A stretch of DNA of 64,000 nucleotides from Sulfuricurvum sp. (GTDB lineage: Bacteria; Campylobacterota; Campylobacteria; Campylobacterales; Sulfurimonadaceae): assembly GCF_030691015.1 (NCBI RefSeq), contig NZ_JAUYFF010000008.1:124001-188000 (forward strand). The letters are read 5' to 3'. A program made the translations under genes and the position numbers. A model generated the notes under the pieces. That model saw nothing but the letters and a program-made list of their open reading frames with translations, had not been told where the DNA came from and ran no database searches. This document shows positions 7,050 through 64,000 of this stretch, one piece after another; the first letter of the stretch is position 1, and each line of letters begins with the position of its first letter.

Positions 7050-7448
7050 TTATCCAACTTCTTGCATCTCTTCAGGCTCTTCTTGAACCAATTTTCCGAT
7101 ACCACGCTCGCTTAGGGGAATATCCTCGCGGAAGCTTTTGGCTTTGTAGGTCGGTGATCTGAGTTTCCCCTCTTTGTTGTGACCTAGTTTGTAGATCTCT
7201 TCGTTGCGGAAATGTTCGTCAAACTCAGCCGTAAACGGCATATCCCACGTAATACATCCGATACTCGGACAAATCGCCGCACATTGAGGATCATCGTAAA
7301 GTCCGACACATTCGACACATTTGTCAGGCTGAACGTAGTATTGTTTTTTCCCCGTCGGATTAGAAGTATCATCCACAATCGCATTGACCGGACATTGTTG
7401 CAAACACGCATCACAAGTGATGCAGGTATCGTTGATAATAACAGCCAT
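7050..7448 (-). CDS. 2[4Fe-4S] ferredoxin, FdxN-like, nif-associated
   Basis: This 132-residue ferredoxin carries two cluster motifs: CITCDACLQQCP (C-x2-C-x2-C-x3-C) and CVECVGLYDDPQCAAICP, where an insertion widens the second motif (C-x2-C-x8-C-x3-C), as in Allochromatium-type and FdxN ferredoxins. About 50 extra residues follow the clusters. These proteins donate electrons to nitrogenase or to cofactor assembly. It is the last gene of a five-gene minus-strand operon and overlaps the stop of nifX by one base. A paralogue lies two genes upstream at 7843. Confidence 0.9.
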   Translation of the reverse strand: MAVIINDTCITCDACLQQCPVNAIVDDTSNPTGKKQYYVQPDKCVECVGLYDDPQCAAICPSIGCITWDMPFTAEFDEHFRNEEIYKLGHNKEGKLRSPTYKAKSFREDIPLSERGIGKLVQEEPEEMQEVG

Positions 7449-7831
7449 TAGAGTAGTTCCTTATCTTTAGATGTGTGGACGATTCGAAGAAGCCACGGCG
7501 GCGGATTGCCCAATAAAAGTTCTTGAAGCTTTACAATCGTCTCATCGATTCGATCATTTTCACCGGAGCGTACCGGATAGATTTTCGAAGCCAGTACCAT
7601 TTTTGAAGCGGTAGGCCCTATCGCGGAGCAATAAAGAATATCCGCCTCTTGAATAGTACTGATTTTGTAGGCGAGTTTTTCGTGTTCATCCGCAATCGCA
7701 TCTTCCGAACTGTCGAGTGTCTTGACATATTCGGCACTCTCAGAGGTGATACGATAAAGCTCAAAGCTTTTCGACCAACCGAAATGTTGATTGACAAAGA
7801 CACCGTCAGTGGAAGCGAATGCGATGAGCAC
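7448..7831 (-). CDS. nifX: NifX-type FeMo-cofactor carrier protein
   Basis: This 127-residue protein belongs to the NifX/NifB-C family (dinitrogenase iron-molybdenum cofactor domain). The N-terminal ASTDGVFVNQHFGWSKSFELY is the family hallmark, with the His in NQHFG expected to contact the cofactor precursor. NifX holds NifB-co/VK-cluster during FeMo-cofactor synthesis in the cytoplasm. It sits between two paralogous ferredoxin genes in the nif accessory operon, 11 bases after the upstream one. The C-terminal 25 residues are less conserved. Confidence 0.88.
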   Translation of the reverse strand: MLIAFASTDGVFVNQHFGWSKSFELYRITSESAEYVKTLDSSEDAIADEHEKLAYKISTIQEADILYCSAIGPTASKMVLASKIYPVRSGENDRIDETIVKLQELLLGNPPPWLLRIVHTSKDKELL

Positions 7832-8684: not shown

Positions 8685-9575
8685 CTACCAGAGATAGATC
8701 ACAATTTTTTTATCAATGACCTTTTCAAACTGCTCCAGTATCATCCCCGCCGTAGACGTAGGCCCAAGGTGGCATCCCGAACACGCACCCAGATAGCGAA
8801 GCCAAATTTCAGGGGTATCTCCGCTCACATAATTGACAAGTGCTACCCCGCCACCATCACTTGCGAGGATAGGAGCCAGATTCTCTGTAATAACCGATTC
8901 TACTTTCGCGCGCTGAGAGGGTTCATCCATCATTCGAAACGTGACATTTATGTCGGTTGCTGCATTCTGGTTACTGACGTACGTGAGGAGTGCATGGGCT
9001 TGTGCCTCTCCTGCGTGGGCAGCTTTAATCATCCACTTCATCGAGTTTAGAACATCATCGTTGCGGAGTAAAATACCTAGTTTGAGTTGAGCGGTAGGCA
9101 TATTGGCCTCTGCGGCTACACTATAGTAACGGATCGATTGATCTTTATCGGCAGTGACACCGATCCCGTTTTCAAACATACCGCCTAGATAAAACGAAGC
9201 GACTTCATGACCTTGTTCCGCTGCACGATCAAAAAGCTTATATGCCGTTTGTATATCTTTAGCGACACCGAACCCTTTGACATACATCGTTCCGAGATTG
9301 ACCATAGCGTCCGTGTTCGTAGCGCTCAACCCTTCCCAAATCGATTTTGCCACGGCGAACTCTTTACGATCGTATGCTCCAATCGCGCTCTCCATCAATG
9401 ATTCTGCTTCCATTGTTCTCTCCTCATTTCGTTTCAAATTTATACGCAAATCGTCCATTGCCTCTTCATAACTCTCACCAAAACCTTTGACATCAGGGAA
9501 ATCACAGCTGTATATCTCATAGCCGTCCCCCTCTTCATTACTGAAATAGTGATAATGGGTTCGCAACTCTTCCAT
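8685..9575 (-). CDS. HicB-like / Sel1-repeat / NifU C-terminal domain fusion
   Basis: This 296-residue protein joins three modules. Residues 5-50 resemble a HicB-type fold (YEIYSCDFPDVKGFGESYEEA). Residues about 65-200 hold Sel1-like repeats (AMVNLGTMYVKGFGVAKD, AAEQGHEVASFYLGGMFENG). Residues 224-296 are a NifU C-terminal (Nfu) domain with the cluster motif C265-S-G-C268. Nfu domains carry a [4Fe-4S] cluster to apo-targets; Sel1 repeats mediate protein contacts. It is the first gene of the nif accessory operon, so it probably delivers clusters to nitrogenase proteins or ferredoxins. No N-terminal IscU-like scaffold is present. The start follows an AAAGAG-type site. Confidence 0.85.
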   Translation of the reverse strand: MEELRTHYHYFSNEEGDGYEIYSCDFPDVKGFGESYEEAMDDLRINLKRNEERTMEAESLMESAIGAYDRKEFAVAKSIWEGLSATNTDAMVNLGTMYVKGFGVAKDIQTAYKLFDRAAEQGHEVASFYLGGMFENGIGVTADKDQSIRYYSVAAEANMPTAQLKLGILLRNDDVLNSMKWMIKAAHAGEAQAHALLTYVSNQNAATDINVTFRMMDEPSQRAKVESVITENLAPILASDGGGVALVNYVSGDTPEIWLRYLGACSGCHLGPTSTAGMILEQFEKVIDKKIVIYLW

Positions 9576-9679
9576 ACTTTGCTCTTTTTACTCATTTATA
9601 GGATGTGATTGCAATTGCCGTTCTAAATCAAAGAATAAGATATGCATAAGCGTTTATATCAATGGACAAAGGAGCAGTA
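9576..9679. promoter_or_regulatory. Divergent intergenic region of nif accessory genes
   Basis: This 104-base region separates the minus-strand fusion-protein operon from the plus-strand NifX-like operon and must hold both promoters. A GATTGCAATTGC stretch near 9607-9618 contains the palindrome TTGCAA/ATTGCAAT. I found no GG-N10-GC pair at exact spacing on either strand. AAAGGAG at 9668-9674 is the ribosome site for the ATG at 9680. Confidence 0.35.
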
Positions 9680-10075
9680 ATGATCGCCATCCCTGTGGAA
9701 CAAAACAGCGATAATCCTATGAGTACAAAACTCTTCGGTAACGCCAAATTTTTCGCCTTAGTTGATCCAAAAAACAAACACTACACGATTATCCCCAATG
9801 AGGGGTGCGGCAACGGTATCAAAACCGCTCATTATCTGTTAGAGCAAGGGGCGACGTCCGCTTTGTACGGATTTTTAGGAGACGGTCCTTTTCATGTGAT
9901 GGTACGTGAGGGGATGGAAGTGTATTGGCTCGGGAAAGAGACAATGGCGCTTAATCAAGCGATTGAGGCCGCCTTCTCTGAATCTCTGGTTCGGGTTACC
10001 CCTGAAAATGCCGATAGTTATCTCGATCCGGGTACCAATGCGGGTGCGTGTGAATGCGGGTGTAGTCATGAGTGA
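9680..10075 (+). CDS. NifX/NifB-C family protein with Cys-rich tail
   Basis: This 131-residue protein has the dinitrogenase iron-molybdenum cofactor fold (IAIPVEQ...STKLFGNAKFFALVD), with the usual glycine-rich middle (ALYGFLGDGPF). It ends in GACECGCSHE, a Cys/His-rich tail that could bind metal. ATG 9680 is preferred to 9662 because AAAGGAG lies six bases before it. Its stop overlaps the next gene by eight bases. It probably binds a cofactor or cluster intermediate during nitrogenase assembly. It differs from the NifX at 7448 and lacks the NQHFG motif. Confidence 0.8.
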   Translation: MIAIPVEQNSDNPMSTKLFGNAKFFALVDPKNKHYTIIPNEGCGNGIKTAHYLLEQGATSALYGFLGDGPFHVMVREGMEVYWLGKETMALNQAIEAAFSESLVRVTPENADSYLDPGTNAGACECGCSHE

Positions 10076-56805: not shown

Positions 56806-56811
56806 TATAAT
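56806..56811 (+). promoter_or_regulatory. -10 hexamer abutting a start codon
   Basis: A perfect TATAAT ends six bases before the ATG at 56818; no ribosome-binding site lies between. This suggests a leaderless transcript for the scaffold gene. Confidence 0.45.
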
Positions 56812-56817
56812 AATCAA

Positions 56818-57249
56818 ATGGAAAATAATCTAAATCAAGAGATCATCGAGCATCTCATGCATCCTCACAACTACGGTCCGCTTGAAAATCCTAGCGGAGT
56901 TGGGGTTGGACACAGTGAAGAAAGCGGCGAATTCGTCATTTTTTATATCCAAAGTGAAGGCAATATCTTAGAGTCAGTCGCTTACGCCACAAACGGATGT
57001 CACGATACCGTTGTACTGGGGTCGATGTTCACCGAGATGATCAAAGGGCAATCGTATGAGTATGCCCGAAGTGCAGCACTAAAGCTACGTGATAAAGTAG
57101 CCCTTGGGCCGATAAAACAACAAGCGTGCGCTCAAATGGTTCTCACCGCCTTCGAAGCGGCACAAATCAATGAAGCACACCGATTTGAAGGGATGGAGGA
57201 AGAACTTCATGCGATTGAAATCGGTATGGAATGTGAGGTAGAGGTATGA
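56818..57249 (+). CDS. IscU/NifU-N-like Fe-S scaffold, one cluster Cys missing
   Basis: This 143-residue protein has the IscU/NifU N-terminal fold (EHLMHPHNYGPLENPSGVG). Canonical scaffolds hold a cluster with three Cys. Here the second (C61 in NGCHDTVVLGSM) and third (C104 in QQACAQM) are kept, while the first, normally in an AxCGD loop near residue 36, is replaced in EESGEF. It may bind metal or a different cluster. It starts at ATG 56818. The ferritin-like gene overlaps it by four bases. Confidence 0.85.
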   Translation: MENNLNQEIIEHLMHPHNYGPLENPSGVGVGHSEESGEFVIFYIQSEGNILESVAYATNGCHDTVVLGSMFTEMIKGQSYEYARSAALKLRDKVALGPIKQQACAQMVLTAFEAAQINEAHRFEGMEEELHAIEIGMECEVEV

Positions 57250-58073
57250 TGGATGCAGCTCTTTTTAGAACGAAACACCAACTGTGGCTGAGGATAGCAT
57301 TTATGTCGTTCTCCGTGAGTGATCCATGGGTTAAAAATCGTCTCTATGAATTTTCACAGATCGAATTTCGCCATCTTAAATGGATTGCCGTATCTCTTTA
57401 CGAAAACCATTCCGCGTATGATTATGAACGGGATAGTCGTTTTGAGATTGAGAGTGAATCGTTCTTTGCCCTTGTACGGACAACGATCAATGAGATCAAG
57501 TCTCTTCACCTTTTGTATGGAGATTCTCCCCTCTCAGAACGGATGGCTCATGATGAGCACTATATTCTCTCTACTTTGAACGCATACCTTGAAAAACTTA
57601 CATTGGATGAGCCGCTTAGTGCTTTTAACCGCTCTCGCCATTGGCCGGATGCACTGTTAAACTCCGCAGAAACTGACGCGCTCACCCTCTTTTTATTCGA
57701 AGAGCTTTACAAAGAGTATGAACTTATTATGGTCTACTTTTACCGACAAATCCGTGCCGAAACGGCGGCAGAAGTAACCCATTTTCAAGACCTGATCGAT
57801 GAATCGCATTTTCATCTCCGCTCGTTCGGAGAGATGATGGCGAAGATGGGGATTTTAGCACTTCCGAGAGTACTTCACCCTCTCACCTATGAAATTGCCG
57901 ATATGGAAAAATTTCTCCGCTCAGGGATCATCGAAGAGGAGAATGCAAAGGAAGAGTGTCGTAAACTCTCATCATCCATACGCGACGAAAAGCTCTCCAG
58001 CTTTTTTGAGTTTATCAATTACCAAGAGAGCTATCACATTGAAATTATGAAAAAATTATTAGGAGAACACTAA
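57246..58073 (+). CDS. Ferritin-like diiron protein, unknown
   Basis: This 275-residue protein is strongly helical, and I recognise no named family. It contains ExxH motifs spaced as in ferritin-like four-helix bundles: IEFRHLKW (about 40), DESHFHLRSF (about 188) and YQESYHIEIM (about 263), plus FEELYKEYE near 157. A diiron site is inferred from them. It is co-translated with the IscU-like gene and followed by a 26-residue membrane protein (TAATG overlap). An oxidase or iron-handling role is possible. Confidence 0.75.
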   Translation: MMDAALFRTKHQLWLRIAFMSFSVSDPWVKNRLYEFSQIEFRHLKWIAVSLYENHSAYDYERDSRFEIESESFFALVRTTINEIKSLHLLYGDSPLSERMAHDEHYILSTLNAYLEKLTLDEPLSAFNRSRHWPDALLNSAETDALTLFLFEELYKEYELIMVYFYRQIRAETAAEVTHFQDLIDESHFHLRSFGEMMAKMGILALPRVLHPLTYEIADMEKFLRSGIIEEENAKEECRKLSSSIRDEKLSSFFEFINYQESYHIEIMKKLLGEH

Positions 58074-58153
58074 TGGAAGAACAAGGGAATATTTATATCT
58101 TATTGGCCGTTGTAGCCGTTTTCGCATATGTCCTTACCCGTAAAAAAGGGTAA
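58073..58153 (+). CDS. 26-residue single-span membrane microprotein
   Basis: Starting at ATG 58073 inside the TAATG stop/start overlap with the ferritin-like gene and ending at TAA 58153, this reading frame encodes 26 residues: an acidic start (MEEQGN), a hydrophobic helix (IYILLAVVAVFAYVL) and a basic end (TRKKG). AGGAGAAC lies just before it. The charge pattern predicts a positively charged cytoplasmic C-terminus. It may anchor or regulate the preceding protein at the membrane. Confidence 0.65.
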   Translation: MEEQGNIYILLAVVAVFAYVLTRKKG

Positions 58154-58154
58154 G

Positions 58155-60113
58155 CTACAACAGTGCTACGGGAGCAATGAATGAACCTTGGAATTGTTCA
58201 ATTCCAAGTGCTTTCAAATGTTCAACATCCTGAGCCTCTTCAATATTTATCGCAATAATCGAAATCCCGAGACTACGGATGACGTTGTTAAAACTCTCTC
58301 TGCTTTTTCCCGTATCTTGATCGAACATCATATCTTGCAAATAGGCACAATTGGCTTTCACGTAATCAGGTCGAATGGTTTGAAGATAGTGCGCTCCCGC
58401 TTCAGGGATCGTAAAATGGTCAATCCCGAAACGATAACCGAACCTTTTAACCATAGCACTAATAGCGGATACTGCTTCAAGCTCATTCAGTGCTGTGGTA
58501 TTGTTCACTTCAAACCACAACACCAAGTCATTATGACGATTAAAATTTTCCAGTTCTTCTCTCAACCACTGTATATTGGCGTATTTTTTCACAAAATCAC
58601 CACTCAGGTTTAGTGCCAACGGAGTAATCGGATGGTGATCTTTGATATGCTTAAGGACTTTTTCGATCATATAGCGATCAAGGGTATCGATAAGCCCCAA
58701 ACTCGTCGCAACAGGGATAAAATATCCGGCTGAATGGATTGTCCCCTCTCGATCAAGCAAACGTAAAAATATCTCCTCATGTAATACACTGAGGGTGTCA
58801 GCACGCTGTTCAACGACACTTTGAAATGCCAAAAGCATCCGTGATTCTTCTAGACTTTTAAGCAACTCTTCCCGCCACTCGTCACGTCCAAGCACCAAAG
58901 CACTATCATTGACTTGGTTTTCTTCAACCACAAACTGCCCACATTGTTTTGCCTGGATCACTGAATGATCGGCACGAGAAAAAAGTGCTTTCAGCGTATC
59001 ATTTTCACTATACGTTCCGATTCCGCATCCGATGAGTAAATAATCTAAAATTTCACGGTCTATTCCCACTATGACCTGAGCGACTTTGGAAATAACATTT
59101 TCAATTTGAGGGGTAATCGAATGTATCTCACACGCGGGAAGAACGACGAAAAAATCAGATTCATTGAGTCTCGCGATCAATGCATGTCGAAAAGAACCTA
59201 AGTGCGCATTCAACGCTTCAGCAAGAGCATTAATAACTATGTTATAGCGATCATACCCCTTCTCACGCTTTAGCCGATCTATCTCATCCAAACTAACCAT
59301 TACATAAGTTCCCGAAGATAACGATGCATCCGACTGAAGATAATCAGGAAGTTTTGCGGCAAGATAACGTCGGTTATGAAGTTTGGTTTCCGAGTCTTTA
59401 TAGAGAAGTTCATGATAACGTAACAGCGTCTCATTTTCTCTCTCAAAAATATCTTTTACTTTTTCGACCATTGCATTCATAGCCGTTGTAACCGACCGAA
59501 ATTCGGTCGTAAAAGGGATCTTTTTCTCAATAATGAATTCGTTGTCAAGAATGGCTTTCGCTTGTTTCTTAATTCGCTTGAGTGATTGAAGACTCACACT
59601 TAGGAGCACATACAGAGTCAGAAACACGACAATGGCAATCATTAAAAACGTTTGTACCAAATCGATCAAGGTTGAATAAAGCTGTCGATAGGTATTTCCC
59701 GTATGTGCGCTTACTTCGAGTGTGCCGAAACGGCTCCATCCTATCATAATATCGCTGGATGCACTCGCATTATAAATCGGTACCATATCGATAAACCATT
59801 GAGGTACATCACTGACATAAACATCATTTTCTCGGGTATAGACCTCTTTTCCATCGACATCGACTAAACGTATACTTTGATAATATCCGCTGTCATAGAT
59901 CGCATTGATCATCGTCTCCATACTCGACGTATCGGAGGAATCGGCAACTTTTGAGAGTGAAAGTCCGAGAGAATGGGCTGTATTTTTGGCATCATTATAA
60001 AGCTGATTTTGGGCAAATTCGGTGGCAGAGCGAAAATTCAACACCATAACCGAGACTAAAATCACCGCTAAAAAGAGGCTCAGCATTATCACCAGTTGTT
60101 TAAATAAACTCAT
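58155..60113 (-). CDS. lapD: LapD-like c-di-GMP receptor
   Basis: LapD is an inner-membrane receptor that, with c-di-GMP bound, captures LapG and keeps the adhesin on the surface. This 652-residue protein has a helix (6-26), periplasmic LapD/MoxY-N domain (about 30-145), second helix (about 150-172), HAMP, a degenerate GGDEF (LNESDFFVVLP) and a degenerate EAL (HEEIFLRLLDREG). The changed motifs mean binding, not catalysis. It follows lapG by two bases. Confidence 0.93.
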   Translation of the reverse strand: MSLFKQLVIMLSLFLAVILVSVMVLNFRSATEFAQNQLYNDAKNTAHSLGLSLSKVADSSDTSSMETMINAIYDSGYYQSIRLVDVDGKEVYTRENDVYVSDVPQWFIDMVPIYNASASSDIMIGWSRFGTLEVSAHTGNTYRQLYSTLIDLVQTFLMIAIVVFLTLYVLLSVSLQSLKRIKKQAKAILDNEFIIEKKIPFTTEFRSVTTAMNAMVEKVKDIFERENETLLRYHELLYKDSETKLHNRRYLAAKLPDYLQSDASLSSGTYVMVSLDEIDRLKREKGYDRYNIVINALAEALNAHLGSFRHALIARLNESDFFVVLPACEIHSITPQIENVISKVAQVIVGIDREILDYLLIGCGIGTYSENDTLKALFSRADHSVIQAKQCGQFVVEENQVNDSALVLGRDEWREELLKSLEESRMLLAFQSVVEQRADTLSVLHEEIFLRLLDREGTIHSAGYFIPVATSLGLIDTLDRYMIEKVLKHIKDHHPITPLALNLSGDFVKKYANIQWLREELENFNRHNDLVLWFEVNNTTALNELEAVSAISAMVKRFGYRFGIDHFTIPEAGAHYLQTIRPDYVKANCAYLQDMMFDQDTGKSRESFNNVIRSLGISIIAINIEEAQDVEHLKALGIEQFQGSFIAPVALL

Positions 60114-60115
60114 TT

Positions 60116-60760
60116 TTATTCCTTTGACCTTGTTATTGATAATTCATTCCATGGGCGTTTTTGGCGGGTTGACGCCGGAACCATTTTGCCGATTTGTGCC
60201 TGCTTGGCATTGAACAGTTCATCCCCGCTGAAACTGTAAATCGGGATCAAATCATTACGCTGTGATGCAGGGAGAATTTTGTAGTTGTAATTATCCAAAA
60301 CCAACGGGACAGAACGGGGAGTTTCATAGTACGTGAGTACTAAATGGGCTGTTTTGTACCGAATCGATTTGGCATAGGTCATAAAGAGTTTGGAAGTAGG
60401 AACTCCCAGCTCTTTAAGGGTAAAATATTTGGCGATAACATAGTCCTCGCAATCGGCTTTATCTTTACCGATAAACTCATACCGTGTCGCCCAATAATCA
60501 CTCTCCCCCCATATCGCCTTATCCGAAGCGTATGGGGTTTGATTGAAAAATTCGTTCACTTTTTCAAGCTTCTCCATCTCATCTACGTCACGTGATTCAT
60601 TCATCATCTGCACAAGAGCAAAAGCTCTTCTCTTTGCAAAAGCACCGTATTCACGCTCAATTTTATCTAAAAAAACTTTGGTAATAGAGAATTCGGGAGA
60701 GCTAAGGAGTACGGCAGCAAGTGCCGCCGTAATGAAGAAAAGGGTGAGCGTTTTTTTCAT
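60116..60760 (-). CDS. lapG: LapG-like periplasmic cysteine protease
   Basis: LapG is a calcium-dependent transglutaminase-like cysteine protease that releases LapA-type adhesins by cutting near their N-terminus. This 214-residue protein has a signal peptide (1-20), and the triad C104 in DKADCEDY, H139 in TAHLVLTYY and D156 in VLDNYNY. It lies between the adhesin gene, 22 bases upstream, and lapD, as a single unit. Confidence 0.93.
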   Translation of the reverse strand: MKKTLTLFFITAALAAVLLSSPEFSITKVFLDKIEREYGAFAKRRAFALVQMMNESRDVDEMEKLEKVNEFFNQTPYASDKAIWGESDYWATRYEFIGKDKADCEDYVIAKYFTLKELGVPTSKLFMTYAKSIRYKTAHLVLTYYETPRSVPLVLDNYNYKILPASQRNDLIPIYSFSGDELFNAKQAQIGKMVPASTRQKRPWNELSITRSKE

Positions 60761-60782
60761 CCTTTTATTTTAGCGTAATTCA

Positions 60783-63700
60783 CTACGAGTGTGTAATATC
60801 TTGTTCAATTTTCACAGTAACAGTTGGATCGCCTGCATTGCTACTATACGTATAAACATCAAACCCGCCATCAATAGCTTTTGCTACCGAGTAATTACCG
60901 CTAGTCTGCGGAATATTGACACTGTCTGCACTATCACCAACGATGGTTAACGTATGATTGCTGTCTGTCATATCGATCACATCGGACAATGACAAATTGG
61001 TTAGCTGATGATTTCCTTGTGATAAATCTATGATTTCGATATTAGCAATCGGATTATTATTAGAACTTAGTGCTTTAAAATTGATATTGGTGTCACCCGT
61101 AAAAATAAGGGTATCTGTTCCGGCGCCTCCATCAATCGAATTGACAATATTATCTCCCGTCAAGGTATTATCGCCATCTATACGCGTTGCAACCAAATCG
61201 GTAATCAATGTGTCATTGCCAAAACCTCCGAATAATTTATCTGATCCTGAGCCTCCGACTAAAATATCATTTCCGTTATCCCCATTAAGCGTATCATTTC
61301 CATTGTTACCGTATATCGTGTCATCACCTTCTGTTCCGTTCATAGTGTCATTTCCGCTACTGCCGTTGAGGGTAGAACCGGTCGGAGCAGTTATCGTGTA
61401 CTCGATGACATTAAAATTACTCTCATTTCCTTGATCATCGATCCCGCTAAATTGAATCTCTCTGGTACCGTTAATGCCTGAATCGGTCTGGAAACTAATC
61501 GAACTGAGCAGTTCAGAATAGACACTCAACGATGCGGTTCCTGTGAAATTCAAGATTCCGGTAATACTATTGAATCCAGATGAATTAATACCGGTATCTA
61601 TACCGTTAAGAAGTACATTTCCATTTCCGTCAATCGAATACATAGGATCAAGTTTCAATGCATCACCAGTGTGATAATTAGTAGTAATAGCTACAGATGA
61701 ACTGGTTAAATTTTCGCTATCCGGATCAGATATGACGACATCTCCTAACCATCCTGATGCTAATGATTTCATCGTCGCGGTACCCAGATTGATTTCAAAA
61801 ACAATGTCTTCGAAATCCTGATCTCCACCGCCATACAAATCTTCGAATCCGATTTTTAACATGCCATCAGTACTTCCTCTACCGCCGATAGCATGAACTC
61901 GATCGTCACGGTTCAAATTAGAATAGCTTAAAAAGTAAATCTGTCCTAAATCTGCTGTCGATTGATTATTGACCAATGTTCCGTTTGCATATAGATTCGG
62001 TGTCTCTTGATCATAGATGGTAGCCGAATTTCCTGTAGAAGAATTTATAACATTTAATGTCTGACCTGCTCTCACACCATCTGTATAACCATCTGCAATA
62101 AGAAAGAATCCTATCTTCGTCCCTTCTGTGATTGAACCTAGATTGACAGTTGAGGCATTGGGAATCAATGAACCTCCACTTCCTGTTGCGGATGCATTAT
62201 CCCAAATAATTTGCATATTGCCAATGGTTCCGTCTTCTGCAATAGTGTACCATCCGAAAGAGCTTTTAAATCCGGCACCTTCTGAGATAAATTTAACCGA
62301 TATATCTTGTGTCGTCTGTAGGATTATCTCACCAACATCGATCTGTTGAGCCGATGACAGGGTCTGCCCTTCGTGTACCGTAGGGAAATCACGTAACATT
62401 AAGTCTCCATAATCGCTCCCAACTTTTTCTTGAGATGAAGTAAGTGACGTATACGAAGAAACAATGGTTGGAGATTCATCAATATTTGTCTCATTGAGCG
62501 TAATCGTCGCAGTGGTCATGTTACCAACACTATCTTTGGCGTTGATAGCATAGTTTCCGCTGTTGATTCCTTGTTCGAAGTCGTTCACTGCTGAAGCCGC
62601 TCCCGCCGTGGTGAGAGTGATGACACCGCTGTTATCGATTTGATAAAAACCATCCGCGGAGGTGTTAGTTCCTGTCGCCGTAAAAGTAAAGCTAGTAATT
62701 CCGACATTATCACTGGCTGCTACGTTAGCAACGGTTGCACCTGCAGTTTGACCTTCTGCATAGGTGAAACTTTGGTTTGCTATCACCGGTGCGGTCGTAT
62801 CGACGCTGGAAGTTGCCGTCACATCGATTTGTCCCGTTGCAGTATCACCATCCGCATCTTGCATAAGATAGGTGAAAGTATCATTGCCCTCAGCATAACT
62901 GATTCCTGTTGCACTTTTTAGAGAAAATTTTACGCCGTCGTTATCTGCACCGTGTGAAAAAATAGCTAGGTATTGGAAGGTTCCTTCCGGATTGACAGCT
63001 ACGCTGAAATCTTTTGATGATACATTGGTTAAGCCTTCTCCGACATAGTGTCCATTACTATCATACGCAACCCAATAAACTTCACCGTTAGAACCTGAAC
63101 CGCTTTGTTGATTGGTTCCGCTGTACATGCCCAAGGTTAGATCAGTAATAGCGTGTTCGAAATCAACAACTAAGACCTCAGGTTCATTGGTATCGGCATT
63201 GATATAATCCGCATTTCCAGTTCCCCCTGCAACTCCTAATCCATTGATTTGATACGCAATGGTTCCACTTGGAGCACTCAAATCAAGCGTTTGTGGTCTA
63301 ATATAACTTGATGTCGCCGTATCATAAGTGAAATAATGGCTTTCTGCCCCTGTTGGGTTTTCTTTAAATGCATACAATCCTGTCCCTGTCCATGCAGGAG
63401 CTAAACCACTTCCACCGATAGAGGAAGAAAGCGAAGACGTGTATGTGTATGCACCATTTTGATTGATGTTCAAGGAACCATTCTCAGTTGTTATGGTTGC
63501 ATTACCGTTATTATCTAGCGCATAAGTAGTACCGTTATAGACGATACCGGTTACTTTGCCCGGCATATCAGCACCCAAATCATTGGTTAGAACATTTCCA
63601 TTCACCGTCGTGCCAACGGTAGCGATTGTTATTGATGCCGTATCTGCAATTGCACGCGGCGCATCATCCTCAATCGTAACACTCAAAGTTCCAGATGCTG

Positions 63701-64000
63701 TTAGGGCACCATCAGACACAGTAACACTAACGTTGAATGATTTAATATCCTCAACATCTACCGTTGCATGATCTATGGTATCACTCAGAGTAACCGTATA
63801 CGCTCCCGTATTGGTAATATTAATGCGAATAACCTCTCCGGCAGTTGTACTACCGATCAAAGTATTCGTATCAATACCGCTCCATGTTACCTCTAACCCA
63901 TTCGATGTCAATGCAGCCGACGGAGTTCCTAGCACTACAGAGCTAATAGTGCTATCAATATCTGAAATATTAAACGTGCCTGTTGCAATTGTAGAATTCG
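60783..64000 (-). CDS. Large RTX/VCBS-type adhesin, C-terminal part (partial)
   Basis: This reading frame stays open to the window edge, so only the C-terminal ~1070 residues of a large secreted adhesin are seen; the internal GTG at 63935 is not the true start. It shows VCBS-like modules (SVTVSDGALTASGTLSVTIEDDAPRA), a cadherin-like repeat (VIANQSFTYAEGQTAG), a DUF4114-type calcium domain (FEDLYGGGDQDFEDIVFEIN) and RTX nonapeptides (GNDTLNGDNGNDILVGGSGS), ending in a type I secretion signal region. With lapG and lapD downstream it is the expected LapA-type substrate. The LapG site would be outside the window. Confidence 0.93.
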   Translation of the reverse strand, partial: NSTIATGTFNISDIDSTISSVVLGTPSAALTSNGLEVTWSGIDTNTLIGSTTAGEVIRINITNTGAYTVTLSDTIDHATVDVEDIKSFNVSVTVSDGALTASGTLSVTIEDDAPRAIADTASITIATVGTTVNGNVLTNDLGADMPGKVTGIVYNGTTYALDNNGNATITTENGSLNINQNGAYTYTSSLSSSIGGSGLAPAWTGTGLYAFKENPTGAESHYFTYDTATSSYIRPQTLDLSAPSGTIAYQINGLGVAGGTGNADYINADTNEPEVLVVDFEHAITDLTLGMYSGTNQQSGSGSNGEVYWVAYDSNGHYVGEGLTNVSSKDFSVAVNPEGTFQYLAIFSHGADNDGVKFSLKSATGISYAEGNDTFTYLMQDADGDTATGQIDVTATSSVDTTAPVIANQSFTYAEGQTAGATVANVAASDNVGITSFTFTATGTNTSADGFYQIDNSGVITLTTAGAASAVNDFEQGINSGNYAINAKDSVGNMTTATITLNETNIDESPTIVSSYTSLTSSQEKVGSDYGDLMLRDFPTVHEGQTLSSAQQIDVGEIILQTTQDISVKFISEGAGFKSSFGWYTIAEDGTIGNMQIIWDNASATGSGGSLIPNASTVNLGSITEGTKIGFFLIADGYTDGVRAGQTLNVINSSTGNSATIYDQETPNLYANGTLVNNQSTADLGQIYFLSYSNLNRDDRVHAIGGRGSTDGMLKIGFEDLYGGGDQDFEDIVFEINLGTATMKSLASGWLGDVVISDPDSENLTSSSVAITTNYHTGDALKLDPMYSIDGNGNVLLNGIDTGINSSGFNSITGILNFTGTASLSVYSELLSSISFQTDSGINGTREIQFSGIDDQGNESNFNVIEYTITAPTGSTLNGSSGNDTMNGTEGDDTIYGNNGNDTLNGDNGNDILVGGSGSDKLFGGFGNDTLITDLVATRIDGDNTLTGDNIVNSIDGGAGTDTLIFTGDTNINFKALSSNNNPIANIEIIDLSQGNHQLTNLSLSDVIDMTDSNHTLTIVGDSADSVNIPQTSGNYSVAKAIDGGFDVYTYSSNAGDPTVTVKIEQDITHS

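Follow-up and report, generated by a model that had tools for sequence, protein, structure and literature searches.

Iron delivery to Fe-S scaffolds is an open question in bacteria that lack frataxin. It arises at a locus from a Sulfuricurvum sp. in which the gene for an altered IscU-like protein overlaps the gene for a ferritin-like protein; no frataxin above the cut-off was found in this genome. We analyzed the surrounding stretch of 64,000 nucleotides (contig NZ_JAUYFF010000008.1, positions 124,001 to 188,000), which is referred to as the window, and asked what the two proteins might do together. The pair and both folds are well supported, and we infer from them that the two proteins are probably an unstudied pair for iron or Fe-S supply or repair.

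Organization of the locus

A preliminary description of the window, made from the sequence alone, had proposed three overlapping genes, and this was confirmed. On the forward strand, P1 (56818-57249) codes for a protein of 143 aa with the IscU/NifU_N fold, P2 (57246-58073) for a tandem ferritin-like protein of 275 aa, and P3 (58073-58153) for a single-pass membrane microprotein of 26 aa. The tight coupling that had been claimed is also borne out: P1 and P2 overlap by four bases (ATGA) and P2 and P3 by one base (TAATG). On the reverse strand, ygiQ and a lapD-like gene flank the three genes. According to the GTDB genome scan, the nearest named locus is that of S. kujiense, with a P2 identity of 92%. 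Also on the reverse strand, lapD-like, lapG-like and large RTX/cadherin-type adhesin genes lie in a row (58155-63935), which we read as a Lap-type biofilm adhesin release locus.

A TATAAT -10 hexamer is located at 56806..56811 (+ strand), exactly 6 nt 5' of the ATG of P1. It occurs at identical spacing in all 13 distinct Sulfuricurvum regions upstream of P1, and this spacing is kept even where the DNA farther upstream diverges. At 6-nt spacing, the hexamer was not found before Sulfurimonas P1 genes. Because the hexamer is so close to the start codon, the P1 transcript in Sulfuricurvum is predicted to be leaderless, starting at or near the ATG.

P1 is an altered relative of IscU

P1 scores 48.3 bits against the Pfam family NifU_N (PF01592), for which the cut-off is 22 (E 1.4e-12). 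The profile of the P1 family matches IscU structures in the PDB (7c8n, E 6.6e-30; 4eb5, E 9.4e-28), and the predicted structure has a pLDDT of 88.9. Two ordinary NifU proteins with the motifs ESCGD, FGCG, and MHCS are encoded in the same genome. When aligned with these, P1 has SGE instead of CGD at the first site and retains the second and third cysteines (Cys61 and Cys104).

The earlier statement that one of three cluster cysteines is missing thus holds for the canonical first position: where Cys35 would be expected, Thr, Asn, or Ser is found and never Cys in the 40 P1 proteins encoded beside P2, and the position of Asp37 is occupied by an invariant Glu38. It overlooked an extra cysteine in the C-terminal tail, Cys139, which falls in the low-confidence tail of the model and may compensate for the lost first cysteine. 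No variation is seen at Glu38, Cys61, Cys104, or Cys139 among 69 aligned close P1 sequences or in any of the 40 P1 proteins adjoining P2, which represent several families.

The metal ligands of mammalian ISCU are Cys35, Asp37, Cys61, and His103, with Cys104 as the persulfide acceptor (PMC8924461). P1 therefore still has the persulfide-acceptor position and one metal cysteine. The residue preceding Cys104 is not His in P1; we dropped this as a peculiarity of P1, since the archaeal IscU 7c8n also deviates there, with Ala. IscU/NifU scaffolds are recognized by three cluster cysteines and an Asp by the first of these. Because P1 has neither the canonical first Cys nor the Asp, we class it as an altered relative and not as an IscU.

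Elsewhere in the window, Sel1 repeats (PF08238) are fused to a C-terminal NifU domain (PF01106) in a gene at 8685-9575 (- strand), near which Nitro_FeMo-Co domain proteins are encoded at 7448-7831 and 9662-10075.

P2 is a tandem ferritin-like protein with one candidate diiron site

P2 had been described as a probable diiron four-helix protein. It is ferritin-like, but its AlphaFold model (pLDDT 94.7) consists of eight helices in two bundles. Bundle 1 (approximately residues 4-115) comprises helices 4-23, 27-53, 73-88, and 95-115, and bundle 2 (approximately residues 140-271) comprises helices 140-169, 174-200, 220-244, and 248-271. The profile of the P2 family matches PDB entry 9viw over its full length (E 1.9e-22). 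Bundle 2 matches each half of 9viw (7.5e-13 and 1e-4); the match of bundle 1 is to the first half (1.2e-6). With VIA-align, residues 1-123 reach a Z of up to 11.8 against bacterioferritins and residues 120-275 a Z of about 10 against Dps/ferritins; values of this size are only moderate for helical bundles and are not decisive alone. A Foldseek search with the model of the whole tandem gave no match at E <= 0.001, so that the assignment of the fold is based on the VIA-align results for each half together with the profile match to 9viw.

A ligand set of the diiron type is found in bundle 2; bundle 1 is devoid of such a set. In bundle 2, each of the four helices carries one part of the set (E157, E186/H190, E231, E261/H264), the second as Glu-x-x-x-His in contrast to the usual Glu-x-x-His. 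This set is invariant among 75 close P2 sequences; in divergent P2 families, E186 is sometimes replaced by Asp while the other ligands hold. As the full ligand set is kept, bundle 2 is a candidate diiron site, judged from the alignment and the model. The two bundles can be aligned by hhalign only weakly (E 0.03-0.05), and we used this alignment solely for the residue register, in which K10 corresponds to E157, the variable E104 to E261, and residue 107 to H264. The only residues still conserved in bundle 1 are H11, R42, H43, R99, and D103. Mean column identity is 60% for bundle 2 and 41% for bundle 1.

No curated family covers P2: the protein from the window does not itself match any family in Pfam or NCBIfam. 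The Pfam family touched most commonly is Rubrerythrin, with a weak match in 55 of 75 P2 relatives (best E 1.3e-4). P2 stays below the rubrerythrin family cut-off and has no Pfam match to rubredoxin. It also differs from RIC/YtfE proteins, as it has neither the DfCCgG motif nor a match to a hemerythrin or RIC family.

Conservation of the P1-P2 pair

P2 was detected in 52 and P1 in 50 of 298 Campylobacterota genomes. In 43 of the 52 genomes with P2, P1 is located directly upstream (families f1, f4, f7, f8, f9, and f11). P2 occurs alone in family f5 (seven genomes) and in one f10 genome, and one f11 genome has P2 without an adjacent P1. A GTDB genome scan returned 272 encoding stretches. Among the best 80 of these, which were examined, P1 adjoins P2 in 75; the remaining five comprise three loci interrupted by contig ends, one with a truncated P2, and one with a truncated P1. 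A neighborhood search in Campylobacterota, which had been suggested for all three genes, thus establishes the conservation of P1-P2 across many families but not that of P3.

Apart from the pair itself, no neighbor recurs in more than 27 of the 60 long loci. There is no constant iron or Fe-S gene among the neighbors, which include genes that we take to be truA, ygiQ, and psd, and no IscS/NifS gene is located beside P1. In the literature searched, there is no mention of 9viw or of the P1-P2 pair. As P2 is encoded without P1 (f5, one f10 genome) and P1-like proteins without P2, neither protein strictly requires its partner.

Two loci from metagenome-assembled genomes (MAGs) deserve mention. In a Sulfuricurvum MAG (L090:2818-2922), P1 is cut to approximately its first 30 residues immediately ahead of an intact P2, either by a real internal deletion or by an assembly fault. 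In MAG STA_65, two contigs (L082, L083) carry the P2-P3 region, P3 being identical and P2 showing the same degree of identity to the window; this is either a duplication or a binning/assembly artefact.

P1 relatives in genomes without P2

Five Sulfurimonas genomes that are devoid of P2 (L053, L054, L057, L059, L071) carry a relative of P1. It is a protein of approximately 180 aa with an inserted stretch and, in the loci read, is encoded next to a deaminase-like gene. In all five, E38, C61, and C104 are gone and the tail cysteine is kept. These relatives nest within the Sulfurimonadaceae P1 clade with a support of 100/100, their exact branch being less certain. Their position in the tree and the loss of the site in genomes without P2 indicate that the internal site of P1 tracks P2. 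This suggests, without proving it, a role of the internal site in the partnership with P2, and the five genomes represent a natural experiment on the residues that would take part in it.

A further NifU_N protein with a long branch is encoded at L070:9423-9905 (-) and L069:9284-9727 (+), which adds a third kind to the IscU-like proteins of these bacteria. In L070, it adjoins what we take to be an anaerobic ribonucleotide-reductase-like gene.

Association with autotrophy

ATP-citrate lyase (ACL), which points to autotrophy by the reductive TCA cycle, is encoded in 51 of the 52 genomes with P2. There are 25 genomes with ACL that lack P2, and only one of the 222 genomes without ACL has P2 (counts leave out three marginal hits). 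The genomes with isolated P2 occurrences in f7 and f10 carry ACL in both cases. All sampled members of the family to which the window belongs have ACL, with or without P2. The association is heavily confounded by ancestry: it runs mostly along family lines and does not count as independent evidence. A link to nitrogen fixation was rejected, because in the family of the window nifH occurs in genomes that have P2 as well as in genomes that lack it. The lone P2 of f5 adjoins genes that we take to code for a 2-oxoacid:ferredoxin oxidoreductase.

Proposed function and alternatives

The best explanation in our view, although we give it somewhat less than even probability, is that a diiron P2 serves the rewired scaffold P1 in Fe-S supply or repair. 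It starts from the folds, as established by homology and structure modeling, the conserved ligands, the adjacency of the genes, and their near restriction to reductive-TCA genomes, and extends to what we infer: which metals are bound, that P1 and P2 interact physically, in which direction transfer takes place, and which enzymes are the clients. P2 would bind two irons in bundle 2, and bundle 1 would be a degenerate domain, probably structural or used for docking. P1 would be an IscU-type scaffold with a rewired metal or cluster site, for which Glu38, Cys61, Cys104 at the persulfide-acceptor position, and Cys139 of the tail are candidate ligands. P2 would pass iron (or electrons) to this site, where P1 would build or hold a labile Fe-S or Fe center, and this center would supply or repair oxygen-sensitive Fe-S enzymes of autotrophic Campylobacterota. 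Such bacteria depend on oxygen-sensitive Fe-S enzymes for carbon fixation at oxic-anoxic borders, and the conserved, unnamed pair, in which a scaffold-fold protein is coupled to one of the diiron type, offers a candidate that can be tested directly.

There is a precedent for such a transfer, as YtfE donates iron to IscU (PMC9268430). Weighing against the proposal are the occurrence of either protein without the other, gene neighbors unrelated to iron or Fe-S, the ancestry behind the ACL association, the Glu-x-x-x-His of bundle 2, and the low model confidence around Cys139. A more specific version of the proposal, which we put forward as speculative and consider distinctly less probable, is that the pair is dedicated to Fe-S supply or repair, with the tandem ferritin-like P2 replacing frataxin/RIC beside an IscU-fold scaffold in which the third cysteine lies no longer in the canonical loop but in the C-terminal tail, and that loss of the partner was followed by loss of the internal site.

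The main rival to a supply or repair pair casts P2 as a reductase of oxygen or peroxide that resembles rubrerythrin and receives electrons from a [2Fe-2S] cluster on P1, much as bacterioferritin does from Bfd, so that the pair would serve oxygen detoxification in microaerophilic autotrophs and not cluster assembly. The frequent touch of Rubrerythrin and the bundle 2 ligands, which are of the peroxidase/oxidase diiron type, are consistent with it; the three invariant cysteines and the Glu of P1 could hold a stable cluster, and the lone P2 of f5 would still function with another donor. However, IscU folds are not known to act as electron carriers, no rubredoxin-like domain was found in P2, and the loss of P1 cysteines in genomes without P2 fits either model. 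We thus consider this rival possible but rather unlikely.

It is still less likely that P1 is an accessory subunit (structural, zinc-binding, or regulatory) and P2 a small ferroxidase or iron store. The absence of the first cluster cysteine throughout P1 would agree with this, as would the five Sulfurimonas genomes in which P1 relatives persist without E38, C61, and C104, the fold evidently being useful without the site. The strict invariance of these residues and C139 in every examined P1 beside P2 argues against it.

The microprotein P3 is a separate gene

The preliminary description had included P3 as a 26-residue membrane peptide and as the third member of a cassette. The first claim stands. 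P3 has hydrophobic residues at approximately 7-21 followed by TRKKG and would span the membrane once; members of its family have 26-30 aa and an RKK ending. It follows P2 in all 20 Sulfuricurvum genomes with P2. Its dN/dS is 0.083, and differences number 213, 120, and 581 at the first, second, and third codon positions; it thus exceeds what chance would produce and is clearly a real coding gene under selection.

The second claim fails. Outside Sulfuricurvum, no P3 was found above chance, weak hits being at chance level. In five genomes (G324, G321, G312, G299, G310), the gene order is ygiQ - P3 - lapD without P1 and P2, and these P3 proteins are 76-88% identical. As P3 survives without P1 and P2, it is a separate gene and not a member of the pair, and its coupling to P2 is translational and incidental at this locus. 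The idea that P3 serves as an anchor or regulator of P1-P2 in a membrane-linked cassette of three components is hence largely refuted and highly improbable, despite the TAATG overlap and the constant position of P3 behind P2 within the genus.

Comparison with known systems

With the N-terminal domain of IscU/NifU (PF01592; PDB 7c8n, 4eb5, 2z7e), P1 shares the fold, the overall sequence, the positions of Cys61 and Cys104, and a carboxylate near the site. It differs by the lack of the first ligand cysteine, by Glu in place of Asp, by the extra invariant Cys139, and by its gene neighbor, which codes for a ferritin-like protein and not for IscS/NifS.

For P2, the closest counterpart is PDB 9viw, a tandem protein of 306 aa annotated as "Bacterioferritin", whose two ferritin-like bundles follow each other as they do in P2. 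Judged from the alignments, Glu/His ligands seem to be retained in both bundles of 9viw, while bundle 1 of P2 has K10 in place of Glu and lacks the Glu/His pair in the last helix.

The system of bacterioferritin and bacterioferritin-associated ferredoxin (Bfr-Bfd) likewise consists of a protein of ferritin fold and a small partner that contains cysteines; P1, however, has the fold of IscU and not that of Bfd. EncB encapsulin cargo (NCBIfam NF058679) is matched weakly by 22 of 75 P2 relatives. A role as encapsulin cargo of the EncB type was rejected, as the shell gene (PF04454) is absent from this genome.

RIC/YtfE (PMC9268430) resembles P1-P2 in joining a diiron helical-bundle protein with an IscU-type scaffold, the transfer from P2 to P1 being our proposal. 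YtfE is hemerythrin-like and has another bundle handedness and ligand set, whereas P2 is a ferritin-like tandem protein.
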